Shown here: positions 16,661 through 35,594 of the stretch, in pieces
Position numbering within the stretch: position 1 is the first letter of the stretch
Layout: each line of letters begins with the position of its first letter
Source of the DNA: Parvibaculum indicum
Lineage (GTDB): Bacteria > Pseudomonadota > Alphaproteobacteria > Parvibaculales > Parvibaculaceae
Assembly: GCF_011762095.1 (NCBI RefSeq)
Contig: NZ_JAASQO010000010.1
Span: 17,501 to 81,500 of the forward strand
DNA: 64,000 bases
Direction of reading: 5' to 3'
Made by a program: the position numbers and the translations under genes
The notes under the pieces: generated by a model
Database searches by the model: none
What the model saw: only the letters and a program-made list of their open reading frames with translations
What the model was told of the DNA's origin: nothing

Positions 16661-17044
16661 ATGAAAATCAGTGCGCAGGCAACACTCCTGCTGGGCGCTT
16701 TCCTGCTTCTGGCAGGCTGCGGCGAGGACAAGACGCCCGAGCCGGTGAACCTCACCGCGCGGCAGGCCTCTCTCTATCAGGCGTCCTGCCACACCTGTCA
16801 CACCGTGCCGGAAACGGGCGCCCCGCAAACGCATGACCTCGCCGCCTGGAAACCGCGCATGGCGCAGGGCGAAGACACGCTGCTCGACCACATTCTGAAC
16901 GGCTTTAACGGCATGCCGCCGCTCGGCCAGTGCATCGAATGCTCGCGCGAGGATTTCATCGCGCTGACGCGCTTCATGGCCGCGCCCGCCCCAACCGGGA
17001 AAAAGGCCGGAAAAGAGGCAGGGAAAGAGGAGACGAACCAATGA
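16661..17044 (+). CDS. Small c-type cytochrome lipoprotein (cytochrome c5-like)
   Basis: A 127-residue exported protein. It has a short signal peptide ending in a lipobox (LLAGC), so it is probably anchored by a lipid after Cys19. The mature part has one haem site CHTCH, a candidate axial Met in GMPPLG, and a second CxxC (CIEC) just after it, the pattern of cytochrome c5. The tail is Lys/Glu-rich. Its stop overlaps the start of the lactone oxidase gene (ATGA), so the two are coupled and this cytochrome is the likely electron acceptor of that enzyme. Confidence 0.85.
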   Translation: MKISAQATLLLGAFLLLAGCGEDKTPEPVNLTARQASLYQASCHTCHTVPETGAPQTHDLAAWKPRMAQGEDTLLDHILNGFNGMPPLGQCIECSREDFIALTRFMAAPAPTGKKAGKEAGKEETNQ

Positions 17045-28372: not shown

Positions 28373-29704
28373 TCAGCTCGTCTCCGCCGCGATGGCCGCG
28401 TCCATATCCTCTTTCAGCACCTTGCCCGCATGGAAATAATGGAATGCGGCGAGGATGTTGATGAGCGAGGTGAACAGAAGCGCGTAGCGCAGGCTGTCCG
28501 ACCCGAAGGGACCTGTCAGCGCATCGCTCAAAAGCCCCACGAGCTGCGGACCGAAACCAAGCCCGATAATGTTGAGCACGAAGAGCATGATGGCCGCCGC
28601 CAGCGCCCGCATGTGAAGCGGCGCCAGCCCCTGGATCATGGAAAAGCTCGGGCCGAGATAGAAGGCGCCCAGCGCAAGCCCCGGCAGATAGAGCAGGATC
28701 GCCGTCGTCGTATCGTCGACGAGATAGAAGCCAATGATGAAGGGGATCGCGAGAATCTTGGCAATCGTCAGGATCCACGCATTCCAGCGTATATCCTTCC
28801 GTGCCAGCCGGTCGGCGAGATAGCCGCCCGACAGCGCCCCTATGCCGCCGACGACGCCGGATGCCGGACCGAGGAAAAGACCGACCTGCTCCGGCGTCAT
28901 GCCGTGACTGCGAATGAGAAAGGCCGCGCCCCAGACAAGCCCGCCATATCCGACGAAGGAGGTCAGCGTCACGCCCAGGATCACATGCCGCGCGGCGCGC
29001 GTTTTCCACAGATAGGCGGCCGCCCTTTTGAACTGCCCCTTCTCCTGAATTTCCATCGCCACGCCGTCGGCATGACCGCGCGGAGGCTCCTTCATGGTGA
29101 AACGCACCAGGAGCGCGATGATCACGCCGGGCAGCCCGACCACGAAAAACGCTTCGCGCCAGCCCCAGTGCTGCGCGACCCAGCCCCCGACCACGAAGCC
29201 GATCATCGTGCCCAGATATACGCCGAGCGAATAGATCGCCATGGCGCCGGACCGCTTGTCGCGCGGATAAAGGTCCGCGATCATGGAATGCGACGGCGGG
29301 CTCGACCCCGCCTCGCCGATGCCAACGCCGACGCGCGCCGCGGCCAGTTGCCAGAAGTTCTGCGCCAGCCCGCAAAGCGCGGTCATGATGCTCCAGACGA
29401 ACACCGCAATGGAGATGATGTTCCGCCGGTTCGCCCTGTCGGCCAGCATCGCGATCGGCATGCCGAGCGTGGCATAGAAGATCGCGAAGGCGATGCCCGA
29501 CATGAAGCCGAGCTGCGTGTCGCTGAGATGCAGGTCGTTCTTGATCGGCTCGATGAGAATGCCGACGATGCTGCGGTCGACGAAACTCGATGTATAGGCC
29601 AGAAGCAGGATCGCCAGCGCATAGCGGCGATAGGCTGGCGTGATGACGATAGCCGGCTGTGCTGCCGTGGCAGCGCCCCCCGCCGTGCTTGGCTCAACGG
29701 CCAT
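28373..29704 (-). CDS. MFS transporter (spinster-like)
   Basis: A 443-residue carrier with twelve predicted membrane segments. The family motifs are present: FVDRSIVGILIEPIKNDLHLSDTQLGFMSG near the first loop, ADRANRRNIISIAVFVWS, and GVGIGEAGSSPPSHSMIADLYPRDKRSGAMAIYSLG, a block seen in spinster-like MFS proteins of organisms that degrade lipids, steroids and xenobiotics. Substrate unknown. It is divergent from the epoxide hydrolase pair across 164 bases, which suggests uptake or export of a related compound. ATG at 29704. Confidence 0.85.
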   Translation of the reverse strand: MAVEPSTAGGAATAAQPAIVITPAYRRYALAILLLAYTSSFVDRSIVGILIEPIKNDLHLSDTQLGFMSGIAFAIFYATLGMPIAMLADRANRRNIISIAVFVWSIMTALCGLAQNFWQLAAARVGVGIGEAGSSPPSHSMIADLYPRDKRSGAMAIYSLGVYLGTMIGFVVGGWVAQHWGWREAFFVVGLPGVIIALLVRFTMKEPPRGHADGVAMEIQEKGQFKRAAAYLWKTRAARHVILGVTLTSFVGYGGLVWGAAFLIRSHGMTPEQVGLFLGPASGVVGGIGALSGGYLADRLARKDIRWNAWILTIAKILAIPFIIGFYLVDDTTTAILLYLPGLALGAFYLGPSFSMIQGLAPLHMRALAAAIMLFVLNIIGLGFGPQLVGLLSDALTGPFGSDSLRYALLFTSLINILAAFHYFHAGKVLKEDMDAAIAAETS

Positions 29705-29789
29705 TCGGTATCCTCCCCGGTGTTATTTGTTGCGCACAGGTTACTTGCGCTGCGTCAAGGCCGCAATCGCGATGCGTGTCCTTCCTCGC

Positions 29790-29817
29790 TTGCGGCATCG
29801 GACAGCGCTGCCATAAT
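29790..29817 (+). promoter_or_regulatory. Probable promoter of the epoxide hydrolase pair
   Basis: TTGCGG (29790-29795) and CATAAT (29812-29817) lie 16 bases apart, about 50 bases upstream of the first epoxide hydrolase start. Confidence 0.5.
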
Positions 29818-29868
29818 CGGCGCGCCGAAAGAAGCACAAGCAAACGACAAAGCCATAAGGGAGACACC

Positions 29869-31059
29869 ATGGGCGCGCCGCAACCCTTCGCCATCGACAT
29901 TCCGCAAGCCGGAATAGACGCCATCATGGATCGCGTTCGCGCCTATGAGTGGCACGAAATGCCGGCCATCGACGAAGGCGGCGACCGTTGGGCCTATGGC
30001 ACCGACATGGCCTATATGCGTGAACTATGCACCTATTGGCTGAACGACTATGACTGGCGCGCAGCGGAAAAGCGTCTCAACGCCTTTCCCCAGTTCATCG
30101 CCGATGTCGACGGCCTCGATGTCCACTTCATCCATGTGAAAGGATCCGGCAGCTCGCCGGAAACGCTTCTTCTCACCCATGGCTGGCCCGGCTCCGTCCT
30201 CGAATTCTACGAGGTGATCGAACCGCTCGCCCATCCGGAAAAATTCGGCGGCAATGCGGAAGACGGCGTGAATCTCGTGATCCCGTCGCTGCCCGGCTAT
30301 GCCTTTTCCGGCAAGCCCGCAAAGCCCATGGGCCCGCGCGCCACGGCGGCGCTGTGGGACAAGCTCATGCGCGAGGTGCTGGGCTACGAGACCTATATCG
30401 CGCAAGGCGGCGACTGGGGCTCGATCGTCACCGGCTGGCTCGGCTATGAGCACGGCGTCGACAAAAAGGGCGGCTGCAAGGCCATTCATGTGAACATGAA
30501 CGGGCTGCGCCCCACCGTGCTTCCCGAAACGGATGAAGAAAACGCCTGGGCGGCAGCCGCCGGCGCGGCCTTCGGCATGGACGGCGCCTATATGCAGATC
30601 CAGATGACGAAGCCGCTGACGCTTTCCTACGCCATGATGGACAGCCCCGTCGGCGCCGCCGCCTGGATCGTCGAAAAATTCCATTCCTGGTCGGACCGCC
30701 GGAACGGCGACGTGCCGGGCCATCTGGAGAACGCCTTCTCCAGGGACGCGATGCTGACCGACATCATGCTCTATCTCGTGACCCGCAGCTTCGGTTCGGC
30801 CATCTGGTTCTATCGCGGCATGATGGAAGAAGGCGGCGTCAACATGGACCCCGGCACGAAGGTGGAAATCCCCACCGGCATGGCGAAGTTCCCGCAGGAA
30901 GCGACCGCCTATTGCATCGGCCCGCGCAGCTATATGGAAAAGGGCTTCAACATCGTGCACTGGTCGGAGCCGGAACGCGGCGGACACTTCGCCGCCTGGG
31001 AAACCGGCCGCCTTTTCGCCGATGAAGTGATGAGCTTCGTGAAGAAGATCAAAGGCTGA
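29869..31059 (+). CDS. Epoxide hydrolase, copy 1 (EHN-domain alpha/beta hydrolase)
   Basis: Opens epoxides to diols through a covalent ester. The 396 residues begin with the epoxide-hydrolase N-terminal lid domain (about 1-100, with WLNDYDWRAAEKRLNAFPQF), then an alpha/beta hydrolase core with the oxyanion motif HGWPGS at 104-109, the nucleophile Asp182 in GGDWGS, and a C-terminal His in GGHFAAWE. This is the microsomal-type branch (PF06441). The ATG at 29869 follows AGGGAG seven bases upstream; longer in-frame starts cross the promoter. Seven bases separate its stop from the second copy. Confidence 0.9.
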   Translation: MGAPQPFAIDIPQAGIDAIMDRVRAYEWHEMPAIDEGGDRWAYGTDMAYMRELCTYWLNDYDWRAAEKRLNAFPQFIADVDGLDVHFIHVKGSGSSPETLLLTHGWPGSVLEFYEVIEPLAHPEKFGGNAEDGVNLVIPSLPGYAFSGKPAKPMGPRATAALWDKLMREVLGYETYIAQGGDWGSIVTGWLGYEHGVDKKGGCKAIHVNMNGLRPTVLPETDEENAWAAAAGAAFGMDGAYMQIQMTKPLTLSYAMMDSPVGAAAWIVEKFHSWSDRRNGDVPGHLENAFSRDAMLTDIMLYLVTRSFGSAIWFYRGMMEEGGVNMDPGTKVEIPTGMAKFPQEATAYCIGPRSYMEKGFNIVHWSEPERGGHFAAWETGRLFADEVMSFVKKIKG

Positions 31060-31066
31060 GGTGTCC

Positions 31067-32281
31067 ATGACCCATCGCATCGTTCCCGCCGACCCGTTCA
31101 CCGTTCACATCTCCGAAGAGGAGGTCGAGGATCTGCGCCGCCGCCTTCAGCGCACGCGCTTTCCGAACGAACCGGTGGGCAACCGTCACTGGGAATACGG
31201 CACCAGCCTTCCCTATATGGAAAAGCTGGTGTCTTACTGGCGCGACGATTTCGACTGGCGGGCAGCCGAAGAAAAGCTCAACCGCTTCCCCCAGTTCCGC
31301 GCGACCTTCACCGACGATGACGGCGAAGATCACACCATCCACTTCATCTATGAGCGCGGCACGAAGACGGATGGCAACCCCGACCCGATCCCGCTCGTCA
31401 TGACACATGGCTGGCCGTCCACCTTTCGCGAGTTTCTCGACGTGGTGGAGCCGCTCGCCCATCCCGAACGCTTCGGGCGGGAAGACCCGGCCTTCGACGT
31501 GATCGTGCCTTCGCTTGTCGGTTACGGCTTTTCATCGCTGCCGCGAAAGCCCATCGGCCCCGCCGCCATCGCTGATCTCTGGCATCGGCTGATGACGGAA
31601 TGCCTGGGCTATGACAGCTATGCGGCACAGGCCGGCGACTGGGGCAGCTTCGTGACGTCGCGCCTCGCGCTCCAGCACCCGGAAGCGGTGCGCGCCATCC
31701 ACCTCACCATGCTGCCGCTGCGCCCCGCCCTCAAGGACGAGAGCCAAGAGCCGGTCAACGACGAAGAATCGAAATGGATCCGGGAGATGCAGGCCTGGTG
31801 GCGTCAGGAGGAAGGCTATCGCTCCATCCAGTCCACCAAGCCCATGGCGCTCGCCTTCGGCCTGACGGACAGCCCGGCCGGCCTCGCCGGCTGGCTCGCC
31901 GACAAATATTACCGCCTCGGCGATACCGACAAGACCGACACCATAGACGGCATGGAGCGGCGCTTCCCCTATGACGACATCCTGACCCAGTTCTCGATCT
32001 ACTGGTTCACCGGCACGATCAACAGCGCCAACACGCTCTACAAGGCCGGTCCCGCCGAGGGCTCGCACCAGTTGAAACCGGGCGAGCGCGTTACCGTGCC
32101 CGTGGCCTATTCGGAATATCCGATCGATACGCTGCCGGACACGCCGCGCTCATGGGCGGAACGAAGCTACAATATCGTCCGCTGGCGGATCATGGAGAAA
32201 GGCGGCCATTTCGCCGCCATGGAAGAGCCGGACTATTTCGCCGACGATGTGCGCGATGCGTTTGCGGAGATGCTGGGGTAA
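31067..32281 (+). CDS. Epoxide hydrolase, copy 2 (EHN-domain alpha/beta hydrolase)
   Basis: A paralogue of the preceding gene, 404 residues. It has the same lid segment (YWRDDFDWRAAEEKLNRFPQF), oxyanion HGWP, nucleophile Asp in AGDWGS, and C-terminal GGHFAAMEEPDYFADD. The two differ throughout the core, so the duplication is old or the copies arrived together already different. The ATG at 31067 is preceded by GAGGTG; an in-frame GTG at 31061 is possible. The pair probably handles different or successive epoxides. A repeat-like palindrome follows the stop. Confidence 0.9.
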   Translation: MTHRIVPADPFTVHISEEEVEDLRRRLQRTRFPNEPVGNRHWEYGTSLPYMEKLVSYWRDDFDWRAAEEKLNRFPQFRATFTDDDGEDHTIHFIYERGTKTDGNPDPIPLVMTHGWPSTFREFLDVVEPLAHPERFGREDPAFDVIVPSLVGYGFSSLPRKPIGPAAIADLWHRLMTECLGYDSYAAQAGDWGSFVTSRLALQHPEAVRAIHLTMLPLRPALKDESQEPVNDEESKWIREMQAWWRQEEGYRSIQSTKPMALAFGLTDSPAGLAGWLADKYYRLGDTDKTDTIDGMERRFPYDDILTQFSIYWFTGTINSANTLYKAGPAEGSHQLKPGERVTVPVAYSEYPIDTLPDTPRSWAERSYNIVRWRIMEKGGHFAAMEEPDYFADDVRDAFAEMLG

Positions 32282-32396: not shown

Positions 32397-33356
32397 TCAG
32401 GCGATCCCCTGACGGCCCATGGCGAGGAACTTCTCGCGGCGCAGGCGGCGCAGCGTGTCGGCATCGAGTTTTTCGAGCCCTGCCAGCTCTTCCTCGATGG
32501 CGTCGCCCGTATCGCGGATCATCTGCGCGCGCTCGCGATGCGCCCCGCCGACGGGTTCTTCCAGCACGCGATCCACGACACCGAGTTTGTGCAGATCCTG
32601 CGCGGTGATCTTCATCGCGGTCGCCGCGTCTTTCGCCTTGTCGGAACTGCGCCAGAGGATCGACGAGGCGCCTTCCGGCGAGATCACGGCATAGACGGCG
32701 TGTTCGAGCATCAGCACGCGATTGCCGCAGGCGATACCGATGGCACCGCCCGACATGCCTTCGCCGATCACAACGGAGATAAGCGGCGTCCCGAGCGACA
32801 GGCAGCGATCCGTCGACCGCGCAATGGCTTCCGCGACGCTGCGCTCTTCGCTTTCCATGCCGGGATAGGCGCCCGACGTATCGGCCATGGTGATGACCGG
32901 AATATCGAAACGCTCGGCAAGCGACATCAGCCGGATCACCTTGCGGTAGCCCTCGGGCCGCGCCATGCCGAAATTGTGCTTGATGCGGCTCTGCGTGTCG
33001 GAGCCTTTTTCATGACCGATGATCATGACGGAACGGCCGCAGAACCGGCCGAGGCCGCCCATGATGGCCGAGTCCTCGCCATAGACGCGGTCGCCGCCCA
33101 TCGGCGTGAAGTCCTCGACCAGCCGTTCCACATAATCCTTGAAATGCGGACGGGCCGGATGGCGTGCCACCTGCACCTTCTGCCAGGGATTGAGCGAGGC
33201 ATAGGTCTCGGTCAGCAGGTTCGCCGCTTTCTGCTCAAGCTTGGAAACCTCGTCGCCGATGCTCATGGACGGGTCGTCCTGTGCAAGACGTTTCAGCTCC
33301 TGCACCTTGCCTTCGAGTTCGGCAATCGGCTTCTCGAAATCGAGATAAGTATGCAT
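32397..33356 (-). CDS. accA: Acetyl-CoA carboxylase carboxyltransferase subunit alpha
   Basis: Half of the carboxyltransferase that makes malonyl-CoA for fatty acids. The 319-residue protein opens MHTYLDFEKPIAELEGKVQELK, as the family does, and carries GDRVYGEDSAIMGGLG, IIGHEKGSDTQSRIKHNFGMARPEGYRK, DTSGAYPGMESEERSVAEAIA and GEGMSGGAIGI. The start is the ATG at 33356; an in-frame start eight codons upstream lacks support. accD is not in the window, as is usual in this class. Confidence 0.97.
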   Translation of the reverse strand: MHTYLDFEKPIAELEGKVQELKRLAQDDPSMSIGDEVSKLEQKAANLLTETYASLNPWQKVQVARHPARPHFKDYVERLVEDFTPMGGDRVYGEDSAIMGGLGRFCGRSVMIIGHEKGSDTQSRIKHNFGMARPEGYRKVIRLMSLAERFDIPVITMADTSGAYPGMESEERSVAEAIARSTDRCLSLGTPLISVVIGEGMSGGAIGIACGNRVLMLEHAVYAVISPEGASSILWRSSDKAKDAATAMKITAQDLHKLGVVDRVLEEPVGGAHRERAQMIRDTGDAIEEELAGLEKLDADTLRRLRREKFLAMGRQGIA

Positions 33357-33535
33357 TGCGCTCCGGGAACTCCCGTCCATTCACCCGCTTGAACCGCATT
33401 CCCGCCAGCCCGTCGGCCCCTTGGCGGGAGATTGCGCCGGGACACTGGCCCGCCCCCGTCGCCTTGTCAACTGCAACTCGCTGCAAGGGAAACATCGTGC
33501 CGATTCAGGGACTTAAAAGGGTTAAGACCATGCCC

Positions 33536-33562
33536 TGTCACAAACCGGCCCGCCCGTCCGTC
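33536..33562 (+). promoter_or_regulatory. Match to the ECF41 promoter consensus upstream of the sigma factor gene
   Basis: TGTCACA (33536-33542) and CGTC (33559-33562) are 16 bases apart, about 80 bases before the sigma factor start. As I recall, this matches the promoter reported for ECF41 sigma factors, so the gene is probably self-activating. Confidence 0.6.
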
Positions 33563-33643
33563 TTCCCGATATATGCATCGACGCAACGGCCCGGCAGCCC
33601 GGCCCGTCATGGGCTATGCTGCCACCGTCCGAGGACCACACGA

Positions 33644-34585
33644 ATGCCCCATGTCCCCACTCGCCCATCTTCCCGCATGAACGCCTCCGACGCGGAAGAC
33701 GTCTTTCTGTCCCATCGCGCACGCGCTTTCGCGGTGGCCTACCGCATGCTGGGCAGTATCGCGGAGGCGGAAGACGTCGTGCAGGAGGCCTGGCTGCGCT
33801 GGCAGGGCGCGGACCGCTCGCATATCGCTTCGCCCGAAGCCTTCATCGTCACCACCGCGTCACGGCTTGCCATCGACCATCTGCGCAAGGCGAGTACGCG
33901 ACGCGAAACCTATGTCGGCCCCTGGCTGCCCGAGCCGATGGTCACCGACGACGCCCCGGCACCCGCCACGCCGGAAGAACGCCTGGAACTCGCCGACGAC
34001 ATCTCCATCGCGCTGCTGCATTTGCTGGAAAGGCTCGCGCCGGAAGAGCGCGCCGTGTTCCTGCTTCACGAGGCCTTCGATTACAGCCATTCGGAAATCG
34101 CGGGGCTGATCGGAAAGTCGGAAGCCGCCTGCCGCCAGATGCTGTCGCGTGCGCGCAAGCGCGTGAAGGCCGAGCATCCCCGTTTCAACACCGAGGCGCG
34201 CGAACATGCCCGCCTGGCGGAGCTTTTCCGGCAGGCACTTGCAAAAGGCGATCCGGAAAAAATCCTCGCCTGCATGAAGGACGACGCGATCTTCTACAGC
34301 GATGGCGGCGGCAAGGTGCTGGCCGCGCTGAACCCGCTCTTCGGCGCCGACAAGATCATGCGGTTCTGGCTGGGCATCATGCGAAAGGCGGAAGAGCCCA
34401 TTGTTTTCCGCCCGGTCGCACTGAACGGCCTGCCCGGCTACCTCCTCACCGAAGGCGACACGCTTCACTCGACCGTCAGCCTGCGCATCGAGGACGGCCG
34501 CATTGCCGCCATCTATGTGCAGCGCAATCCCGACAAGCTCGCCGGCATCATGCGCCGGATGGGGCTCAGACCGCCGCCGGTCTGA
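33644..34585 (+). CDS. ECF41-type RNA polymerase sigma factor with SnoaL-like C-terminal extension
   Basis: 313 residues. Sigma region 2 (RAFAVAYRMLGSIAEAEDVVQEAWLRW) and region 4 (LAPEERAVFLLHEAFDYSHSEIAGLIGKSEAACRQMLSRAR) are joined by the linker motif WLPEP. A C-terminal SnoaL-like domain of about 110 residues carries SDGGGKV and NPDKL. These three motifs mark ECF41, whose extension works as a built-in anti-sigma device in place of a separate protein. The ATG at 33644 has a GAGGA ribosome site; Met12 (33677) has none. ECF41 genes usually lie beside a target such as an oxidoreductase or carboxymuconolactone decarboxylase; none is here. Confidence 0.92.
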   Translation: MPHVPTRPSSRMNASDAEDVFLSHRARAFAVAYRMLGSIAEAEDVVQEAWLRWQGADRSHIASPEAFIVTTASRLAIDHLRKASTRRETYVGPWLPEPMVTDDAPAPATPEERLELADDISIALLHLLERLAPEERAVFLLHEAFDYSHSEIAGLIGKSEAACRQMLSRARKRVKAEHPRFNTEAREHARLAELFRQALAKGDPEKILACMKDDAIFYSDGGGKVLAALNPLFGADKIMRFWLGIMRKAEEPIVFRPVALNGLPGYLLTEGDTLHSTVSLRIEDGRIAAIYVQRNPDKLAGIMRRMGLRPPPV

Positions 34586-34592
34586 GCCTCTC

Positions 34593-35594
34593 TCAGGCGC
34601 TATCCTTCTTGGCAAGCGGGTGCTTGGTTTCCACAAGTTCCTTCAACCGCTCGTCCAGCACATGCGTATAGATCTGCGTGGTCGAAATATCCGCATGGCC
34701 CAGCATCTGCTGTACCGCGCGCAGATCCGCCCCGTTGGCCAGAAGGTGGCTCGCAAAGGCGTGGCGCAGCGTATGCGGCGACACGCGCTTGGGATCGATC
34801 CCGGCGGAAACGGCGAGATCTTTCAGAAGCTGCGCAAAGCGATGCCGCGTGAGATGGCCCTGCCGCCCGCGCGACGGGAAGAGCCAGGGCGACACCCTGT
34901 CGCCCAGACGGCGCGCCCGGAGCGGCACATAGTCGTTGATCGCCGCCCGCGCCGTATCGGACAGCGGCACCAGCCGTTCCCGGCCGCCCTTGCCCGTCAC
35001 GGTGAGGAACCGCTGATCGCCCCGAACCGCCGAAAGCGGCAGGCCGACAAGCTCCGACACGCGAAGCCCCGTGGCGTAAAGCACCTCCATCAGGCACACC
35101 AGCCGCGCCCGCTTGTAGGCGAGTACTTCTTCCTCATGGCTGCGCCCGTCCACGGTCTGCCGCGCGGCGGCAAGCAGGCCGTCGACTTCCGCGACAGCCA
35201 GCGTCTTCGGCAGGGGCCTCGCCCGCCTCGGACCCTCGACCGTGCTGCACGGATCGTCCGTCCGCACGCTGTCCGCATACAGAAAACTGTGGAACTGCCG
35301 CACGGCCGACAGGCGCCGCGCCGCTGTCGCGGCGGAAAGCCCCTGATTGTTCAGCGCTTCCAGATAGGCACGAATGTCTTCCGTGGCAGCTTCATGCACA
35401 CCGCGACGTCGCCCCGCCAGAAAACCGGCGAAGTCCTTCAGATCGCGATGATAGGCCTCGAGTGTGTTGCGCGCGGCACCCCGTTCCGCACTCAGCATTT
35501 CGAGAAAGGCCTCGATGTAACTCTGACCTTCGATCGTCCCCCCAACGGCCTCCCCGGTTTTCGTTACCTTGGTCACCGATGGTTGATTAGACAT
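34593..35594 (-). CDS. xerD: Tyrosine recombinase XerD
   Basis: Resolves chromosome dimers at dif with XerC. The 333 residues contain an N-terminal SAM-like core-binding domain (about 24-112) and a catalytic domain with Arg178 (ATGLRVSEL), His274 and Arg277 (HTLRHAFASHLL), His300 (LGHADISTTQIYTHV) and the nucleophile Tyr309. Its place after accA and before aroK is the usual one, so it is a housekeeping recombinase and not the integrase of an element. The ATG at 35594 lies eight bases past the stop of the secreted-protein gene. Confidence 0.95.
   Translation of the reverse strand: MSNQPSVTKVTKTGEAVGGTIEGQSYIEAFLEMLSAERGAARNTLEAYHRDLKDFAGFLAGRRRGVHEAATEDIRAYLEALNNQGLSAATAARRLSAVRQFHSFLYADSVRTDDPCSTVEGPRRARPLPKTLAVAEVDGLLAAARQTVDGRSHEEEVLAYKRARLVCLMEVLYATGLRVSELVGLPLSAVRGDQRFLTVTGKGGRERLVPLSDTARAAINDYVPLRARRLGDRVSPWLFPSRGRQGHLTRHRFAQLLKDLAVSAGIDPKRVSPHTLRHAFASHLLANGADLRAVQQMLGHADISTTQIYTHVLDERLKELVETKHPLAKKDSA

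Follow-up and report, generated by a model that had tools for sequence, protein, structure and literature searches.

The stretch of DNA analysed here, referred to as the window, covers 64 kb (C10:17501-81500) of the 4.02-Mb genome of Parvibaculum indicum (37 contigs) and carries a gene for an ECF41 sigma factor (33644-34585, plus strand), preceded by a Shine-Dalgarno-like GAGGA (33631-33635, plus strand). The encoded protein of 313 amino acids is composed of sigma2, a WLPEP linker, sigma4 and a SnoaL-like C-terminal domain. The three sequence marks on which the initial annotation had based its assignment to ECF41 were all located: WLPEP in the sigma2-sigma4 linker (33923-33937), and SDGGGKV (34298-34318) and NPDKL (34526-34540), both in the C-terminal extension. 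WLPEP is confirmed by Wecke 2012 (PMC3426412, cited throughout for the sections covered), where NPDKL has no occurrence in the covered text; it recurs in the ECF41 relatives compared here. The protein matches two NCBIfam models near full length and above their curated cut-offs, SigJ (344 bits vs 271) and SigX4 (339.7 vs 323.25), and exceeds the Pfam cut-offs for sigma region 2 (PF04542) and region 4_2 (PF08281), while SnoaL_2 falls slightly below its threshold (24.9 vs 27, E 3e-5). The extension has the length of about 100 amino acids, the SnoaL-like character and the conserved motifs that define the family. It is the only full-length ECF41 protein in the genome; the other two matches are 26–29% identical and confined to the sigma domains, so a second paralogue was rejected.

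On either side lie accA (32397-33380) and a xerD-type tyrosine recombinase gene (34593-35594), both on the minus strand, as initially annotated. Consistent with ECF41 membership, no anti-sigma gene adjoins. The family's usual COE neighbour (a CMD, that is, carboxymuconolactone decarboxylase, an oxidoreductase or an epimerase) is missing from the sigma locus; such a neighbour is not needed for membership, because 126 published ECF41 genes (34%), 38 of them with their own promoter, are orphans without an adjacent COE gene (Wecke 2012, Table 4, PMC3426412). Most Parvibaculum genomes keep the partners adjacent, but a sigma gene standing without them is nothing unusual in the family. Taken together, these sequence features indicate that the window protein is an ordinary, intact ECF41 family member. 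Elsewhere in the window, two adjacent same-strand frames resemble epoxide hydrolases (29659-32281), the second of which (31061-32281) matches EHN and an alpha/beta hydrolase domain in a domain search of that frame alone.

Upstream of the sigma gene and on its strand is a perfect TGTCACA-N16-CGTC (33536-33562), with the -35 element at 33536-33542 and, after a spacer of 16, the -10 element at 33559-33562, in agreement with the published consensus and spacing (PMC3426412); its identification as the family promoter is thereby borne out. Transcription would be expected to start some 7–10 nt past CGTC, and 81 nt (33563-33643, plus strand) separate the promoter from the start codon. A consensus scan near the sigma gene found no sigma-70-like promoter or terminator. 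The motif is the sole perfect site in the 64-kb window, where three sites with at most one mismatch occur and 0.65 would be expected (of 100 shuffles, 5 reach three), and it is present, again perfect, at the equivalent position in G015, the nearest relative, whose sigma protein is 86% identical. Both accA and xerD were rejected as targets, since neither is on the strand that the promoter serves and both stay beside the sigma gene throughout the genus. Perfect N16 sites number three in the whole genome, compared with none for the reversed control. The genome-wide scan that had been suggested as a check, run here with spacers of 15 to 17, yields six exact sites, one of them ahead of a remote CMD gene. 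Four others were read with 1.5-kb flanks. Three were rejected as target promoters: C2:82475 (spacer 16), where the same strand offers no plausible gene, C3:10544 (spacer 15), inside a frame and antisense to an SDR-like frame, and C8:125671 (spacer 17), inside a frame. The fourth, C7:226729 (spacer 17), extends into the beginning of a TetR-type frame and may be a target promoter.

History of the locus within Parvibaculum

The same locus was compared in 27 Parvibaculum genomes, P. indicum included. In 20 of them the ECF41 gene comes third in a row, after one for a small membrane protein and one for a CMD-like protein with a CxxC, and a perfect motif lies 1.06–1.17 kb upstream of the ECF41 match in 18 of these intact operons, the remaining two showing one mismatch. 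The 81-nt gap of P. indicum therefore corresponds in most relatives to about 1 kb carrying two genes. The membrane protein has no family match in Pfam or NCBIfam; its partner reaches 21.9 bits against a Pfam cut-off of 23, with no NCBIfam match, and the label CMD-like therefore rests on this sub-threshold score and a CGPC motif. The accA and xerD flanks are found at all 23 loci tested (L007 and L010-L031, with P. indicum, G015 and G025 among them), although in some, for example L031, an additional frame separates ECF41 from xerD.

Neither partner gene has a match in the P. indicum genome or in G015, and other members of the genus display the locus in partial states. In G025 (L124, C8:190300-192300) the membrane protein gene is gone and the promoter runs straight into what is left of the CMD-like gene, its last third, devoid of the CxxC; an intact ECF41 gene follows. 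In G006 (L123, C9:39000-41500) the promoter and most of the membrane protein gene remain, and ECF41 is reduced to its C-terminal part, with the sigma domains lost. No ECF41 match was found in G005, G020 and G022, whose assemblies are 57–84% complete. On the ECF41 tree, from which G006 was left out, P. indicum and G015 pair with a support of 100/100, separate from G025, and the local targets were therefore probably lost at least twice in Parvibaculum.

These comparisons indicate that the gap beside the P. indicum sigma gene is a deletion, a lineage-specific loss of two genes, as a result of which the promoter now abuts the sigma gene. The 12-mer ATGGGCTATGCT (33609-33620, plus strand), which G015 shares, may be a remnant of the lost gene's 3' end. 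Of the 20 intact relatives, 4 have it exactly and another 6 match it at 11 of 12 letters, in the same codons of the CMD-like gene and 77–110 nt upstream of the ECF41 match. When the 81-nt leader was aligned locally with one relative at a time, most scores were no better than those of shuffles. Only this 12-mer stands out, and its reading as a remnant is suggestive only.

A carboxymuconolactone decarboxylase gene on another contig

The initial annotation held that the sigma factor lacks the usual kind of target, a view that no longer stands. At C7:121348-121803 the genome encodes an AhpD-like CMD of 152 amino acids, recognized from Pfam, NCBIfam and its sequence (PF02627, 81.5 bits vs a cut-off of 23; AhpD core domain TIGR00778, 64.8 vs 27.8), in which the CxxC reads CAYC. 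Ahead of it is a perfect TGTCACA-N16-CGTC (C7:121281-121307), identical in elements and spacing to the promoter of the sigma gene, that begins 67 nt and ends 40 bp upstream of the ATG (121348). The leader would be about 33 nt long by our estimate; Table 5 of Wecke 2012 lists two CMD genes, with leaders of 31–32 nt (PMC3426412). Among the eight PF02627 matches in the genome this is the only one preceded by the motif; the other seven reach at best 7–8 of its 11 letters.

To follow the motif across relatives, 61 genomes (60 relatives and P. indicum) were searched for this CMD at E up to 1e-20, which gave 25 loci, and the motif was scored over 11 letters within 150 nt of the projected gene start. 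It is found at 10 letters or better, with a spacer of 16, upstream of 24 of the 25, being perfect in 13; the exception is in G060. None of 124,348 control positions in the flanks of the CMD loci attains this level. All 14 Parvibaculum genomes with a CMD match have it at 10 or 11 letters and a spacer of 16, seven in perfect form, and in this genus the CMD gene is located either on a different contig from the sigma gene or at least 0.69 Mb away. In five of the nine other close Parvibaculum copies the motif begins with GGTCACA or AGTCACA instead of TGTCACA, and in two of these genomes, G011 and G014, GGTCACA precedes the local operon as well. Outside Parvibaculum the CMD adjoins an ECF41 gene in G030, G036, G037 and G049, which is the textbook layout, and at two Brevundimonas loci a CMD of the same type (64–65% identical), with a perfect motif in front, lies directly upstream of ECF41. 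Two further genomes, G033 and G029, have the order accA, membrane protein, ECF41, xerD with no CMD-like gene (L032, L033), and both possess a remote CMD with a perfect motif.

The genomic setting of the P. indicum copy differs from that of the nine other Parvibaculum copies. Those nine have the same downstream flank, which includes a tsaE-like gene, and at that site P. indicum and G015 have no CMD; the copy described here sits between UbiD-like and YceI-like genes (all three labels were assigned by eye). G006 has the UbiD-like gene with no CMD beside it, and G015 has no UbiD match. On the CMD tree the P. indicum copy falls outside the nine-copy clade, a placement that is not firm; this and the unshared site count somewhat against the CMD gene as an established target. 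The gene was either moved or separately acquired, and either way a perfect ECF41 motif was kept or brought along.

Proposed circuit and alternative explanations

In the explanation that we favour, the ECF41 sigma factor would be held in check by its own fused SnoaL-like domain, a type of control by the C-terminal extension that is treated for ECF41 in two reviews (PMC8999054, PMC8103513, for the parts covered). Once active, it would drive its own gene from 33536-33562 and, from C7:121281-121307, the AhpD-like CxxC CMD gene, whose product presumably has a redox role. The local target operon for the membrane protein and the CMD-like CxxC protein, which most Parvibaculum genomes retain between accA and xerD, was lost in this lineage, and the promoter came to lie next to the sigma gene. 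The initial annotation had left the choice between the sigma gene itself and a remote gene as the target, and the evidence points to both. We regard it as probable that the sigma factor is autoregulated and activates itself and the remote CMD gene, the local operon having been lost.

There may be more targets than these two, as some one-mismatch sites precede real-looking genes. A wider regulon, with more than two promoters and including sites off the consensus, is an alternative to which we assign a limited but appreciable probability. Sites with at most one mismatch number 34 in the genome against 14 in the control; a survey covered 30 of the 34 loci, and 29 further sites were read. Some lie before Pfam-matched frames, a methyltransferase (L236) and DUF3419 (L241), or before an OprF-like barrel slightly below cut-off (L246), and two sites coincide in part with the beginning of a TetR-type frame (L245; L004, spacer 17). 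In other genera of the family a perfect site precedes a pyridine nucleotide-disulphide oxidoreductase gene (L119, L120; G029, G033), and in two genomes of another genus a perfect TGTCACA-N16-CGTC precedes a Cu/Zn superoxide dismutase gene (L126, L127; G028, G035). The oxidoreductase motif of L119 and L120 sits about 2 kb from a CMD that bears its own motif. Going by the title of a paper, an Azospirillum ECF41 factor reportedly controls motility, and larger ECF41 regulons may thus already be in print. Against such an extension, the L228 site lies inside a DUF3422 gene and is coding, the one-mismatch site at window 16796-16822 falls in a CxxCH-type haem motif and is coding too, and no activation was seen at the three near-consensus sites assayed by Wecke 2012 (PMC3426412). 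In the haem motif TGTCAC encodes Cys-His, and a D-arabinono-1,4-lactone oxidase-type FAD protein is encoded downstream.

It is improbable, in our judgment, that the sigma factor is instead a relic on its way out, activating only itself, with the promoter of the remote CMD gene a leftover devoid of a role. The locus is indeed eroding in the genus, as is attested by the truncated ECF41 of G006 and by the G025 locus, which is without the membrane protein gene and retains little of the CMD-like one. G015 is the result least comfortable for a reading with two targets: no remote CMD of this type was found in its assembly (91% complete, 180 contigs), its four PF02627 matches are all devoid of the motif, and the sigma gene may consequently persist there with no visible target. 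Moreover, the dN/dS of the sigma gene between P. indicum and G015 is 0.19, about twice the 0.06–0.10 of five other pairs, a rough comparison as the pairs differ in divergence, and this may mean relaxed constraint. A ratio of 0.19 in an intact reading frame nevertheless indicates a gene under constraint, if perhaps less than elsewhere, and the motif is perfect both at the sigma gene and at the CMD gene, at the latter despite its new genomic site. An accidental origin of the motif before the remote CMD gene is extremely improbable, and conservation speaks strongly against it. Accidental perfect sites do exist, as C2:82475-82501 with no plausible gene on its strand illustrates, but at a density of 34 sites per roughly 8 million positions about 0.02 matches would be expected before 25 genes (150 nt each), and 24 were found.

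The consequences for biology are modest. Orphans that carry a promoter of their own have already been published; what would be new, itself a modest point, is that the targets of one ECF41 factor are distributed over unlinked places in the genome. Among the literature matches listed, taken by their titles and abstract openings, none describes a split ECF41 target set in Parvibaculum. With the balance tilting somewhat in favour, we suggest that an ECF41 factor can run a small redox regulon over unlinked sites, that a CMD gene keeps its promoter when relocated, that many of the published orphans may have a remote CMD, and that the Parvibaculum set comprises two CMD-type targets, one local and one remote, so that the sigma factor stays in service after the local loss. 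The missing partner of an orphan was located here through promoter conservation, in a genus that presents intact operons, partial deletions and a full deletion of the same locus, and this leads to a testable rule: where an ECF41 gene stands alone, the family promoter should be sought before a remote CMD gene.

Comparison with known ECF41 systems

The arrangement of sigma2, WLPEP, sigma4 and C-terminal extension is shared with the pairs Ecf41Rsp/RSP_0606 of Rhodobacter sphaeroides and Ecf41Bli/ydfG of Bacillus licheniformis (PMC3426412), as are the -35 element TGTCACA, accompanied by CGTC or TGTT, and a CxxC CMD as target. Those two sigma genes adjoin their CMD, which is the sole target found, and a single target per ECF41 factor is what Wecke 2012 concludes (PMC3426412); in P. 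indicum, by contrast, the CMD gene lies on another contig and the sigma gene has its own promoter. RpoE9 of Sinorhizobium meliloti, with SMb20029, is likewise an alphaproteobacterial ECF41 factor with a CxxC CMD, its single target, although the two genes are adjacent, probably forming one operon, and not split as they are here (PMC6180224, for the part covered). The nearest solved structure by sequence is that of M. tuberculosis SigJ (5xe7, E 1.1e-53), which has the same architecture; SigJ is, however, distant in sequence. The orphans of Table 4 in Wecke 2012 also lack an adjacent COE gene, and the sections covered give no remote target for them (PMC3426412), whereas for the P. indicum sigma factor a candidate remote target, the CxxC CMD gene at C7:121348-121803, can now be named.
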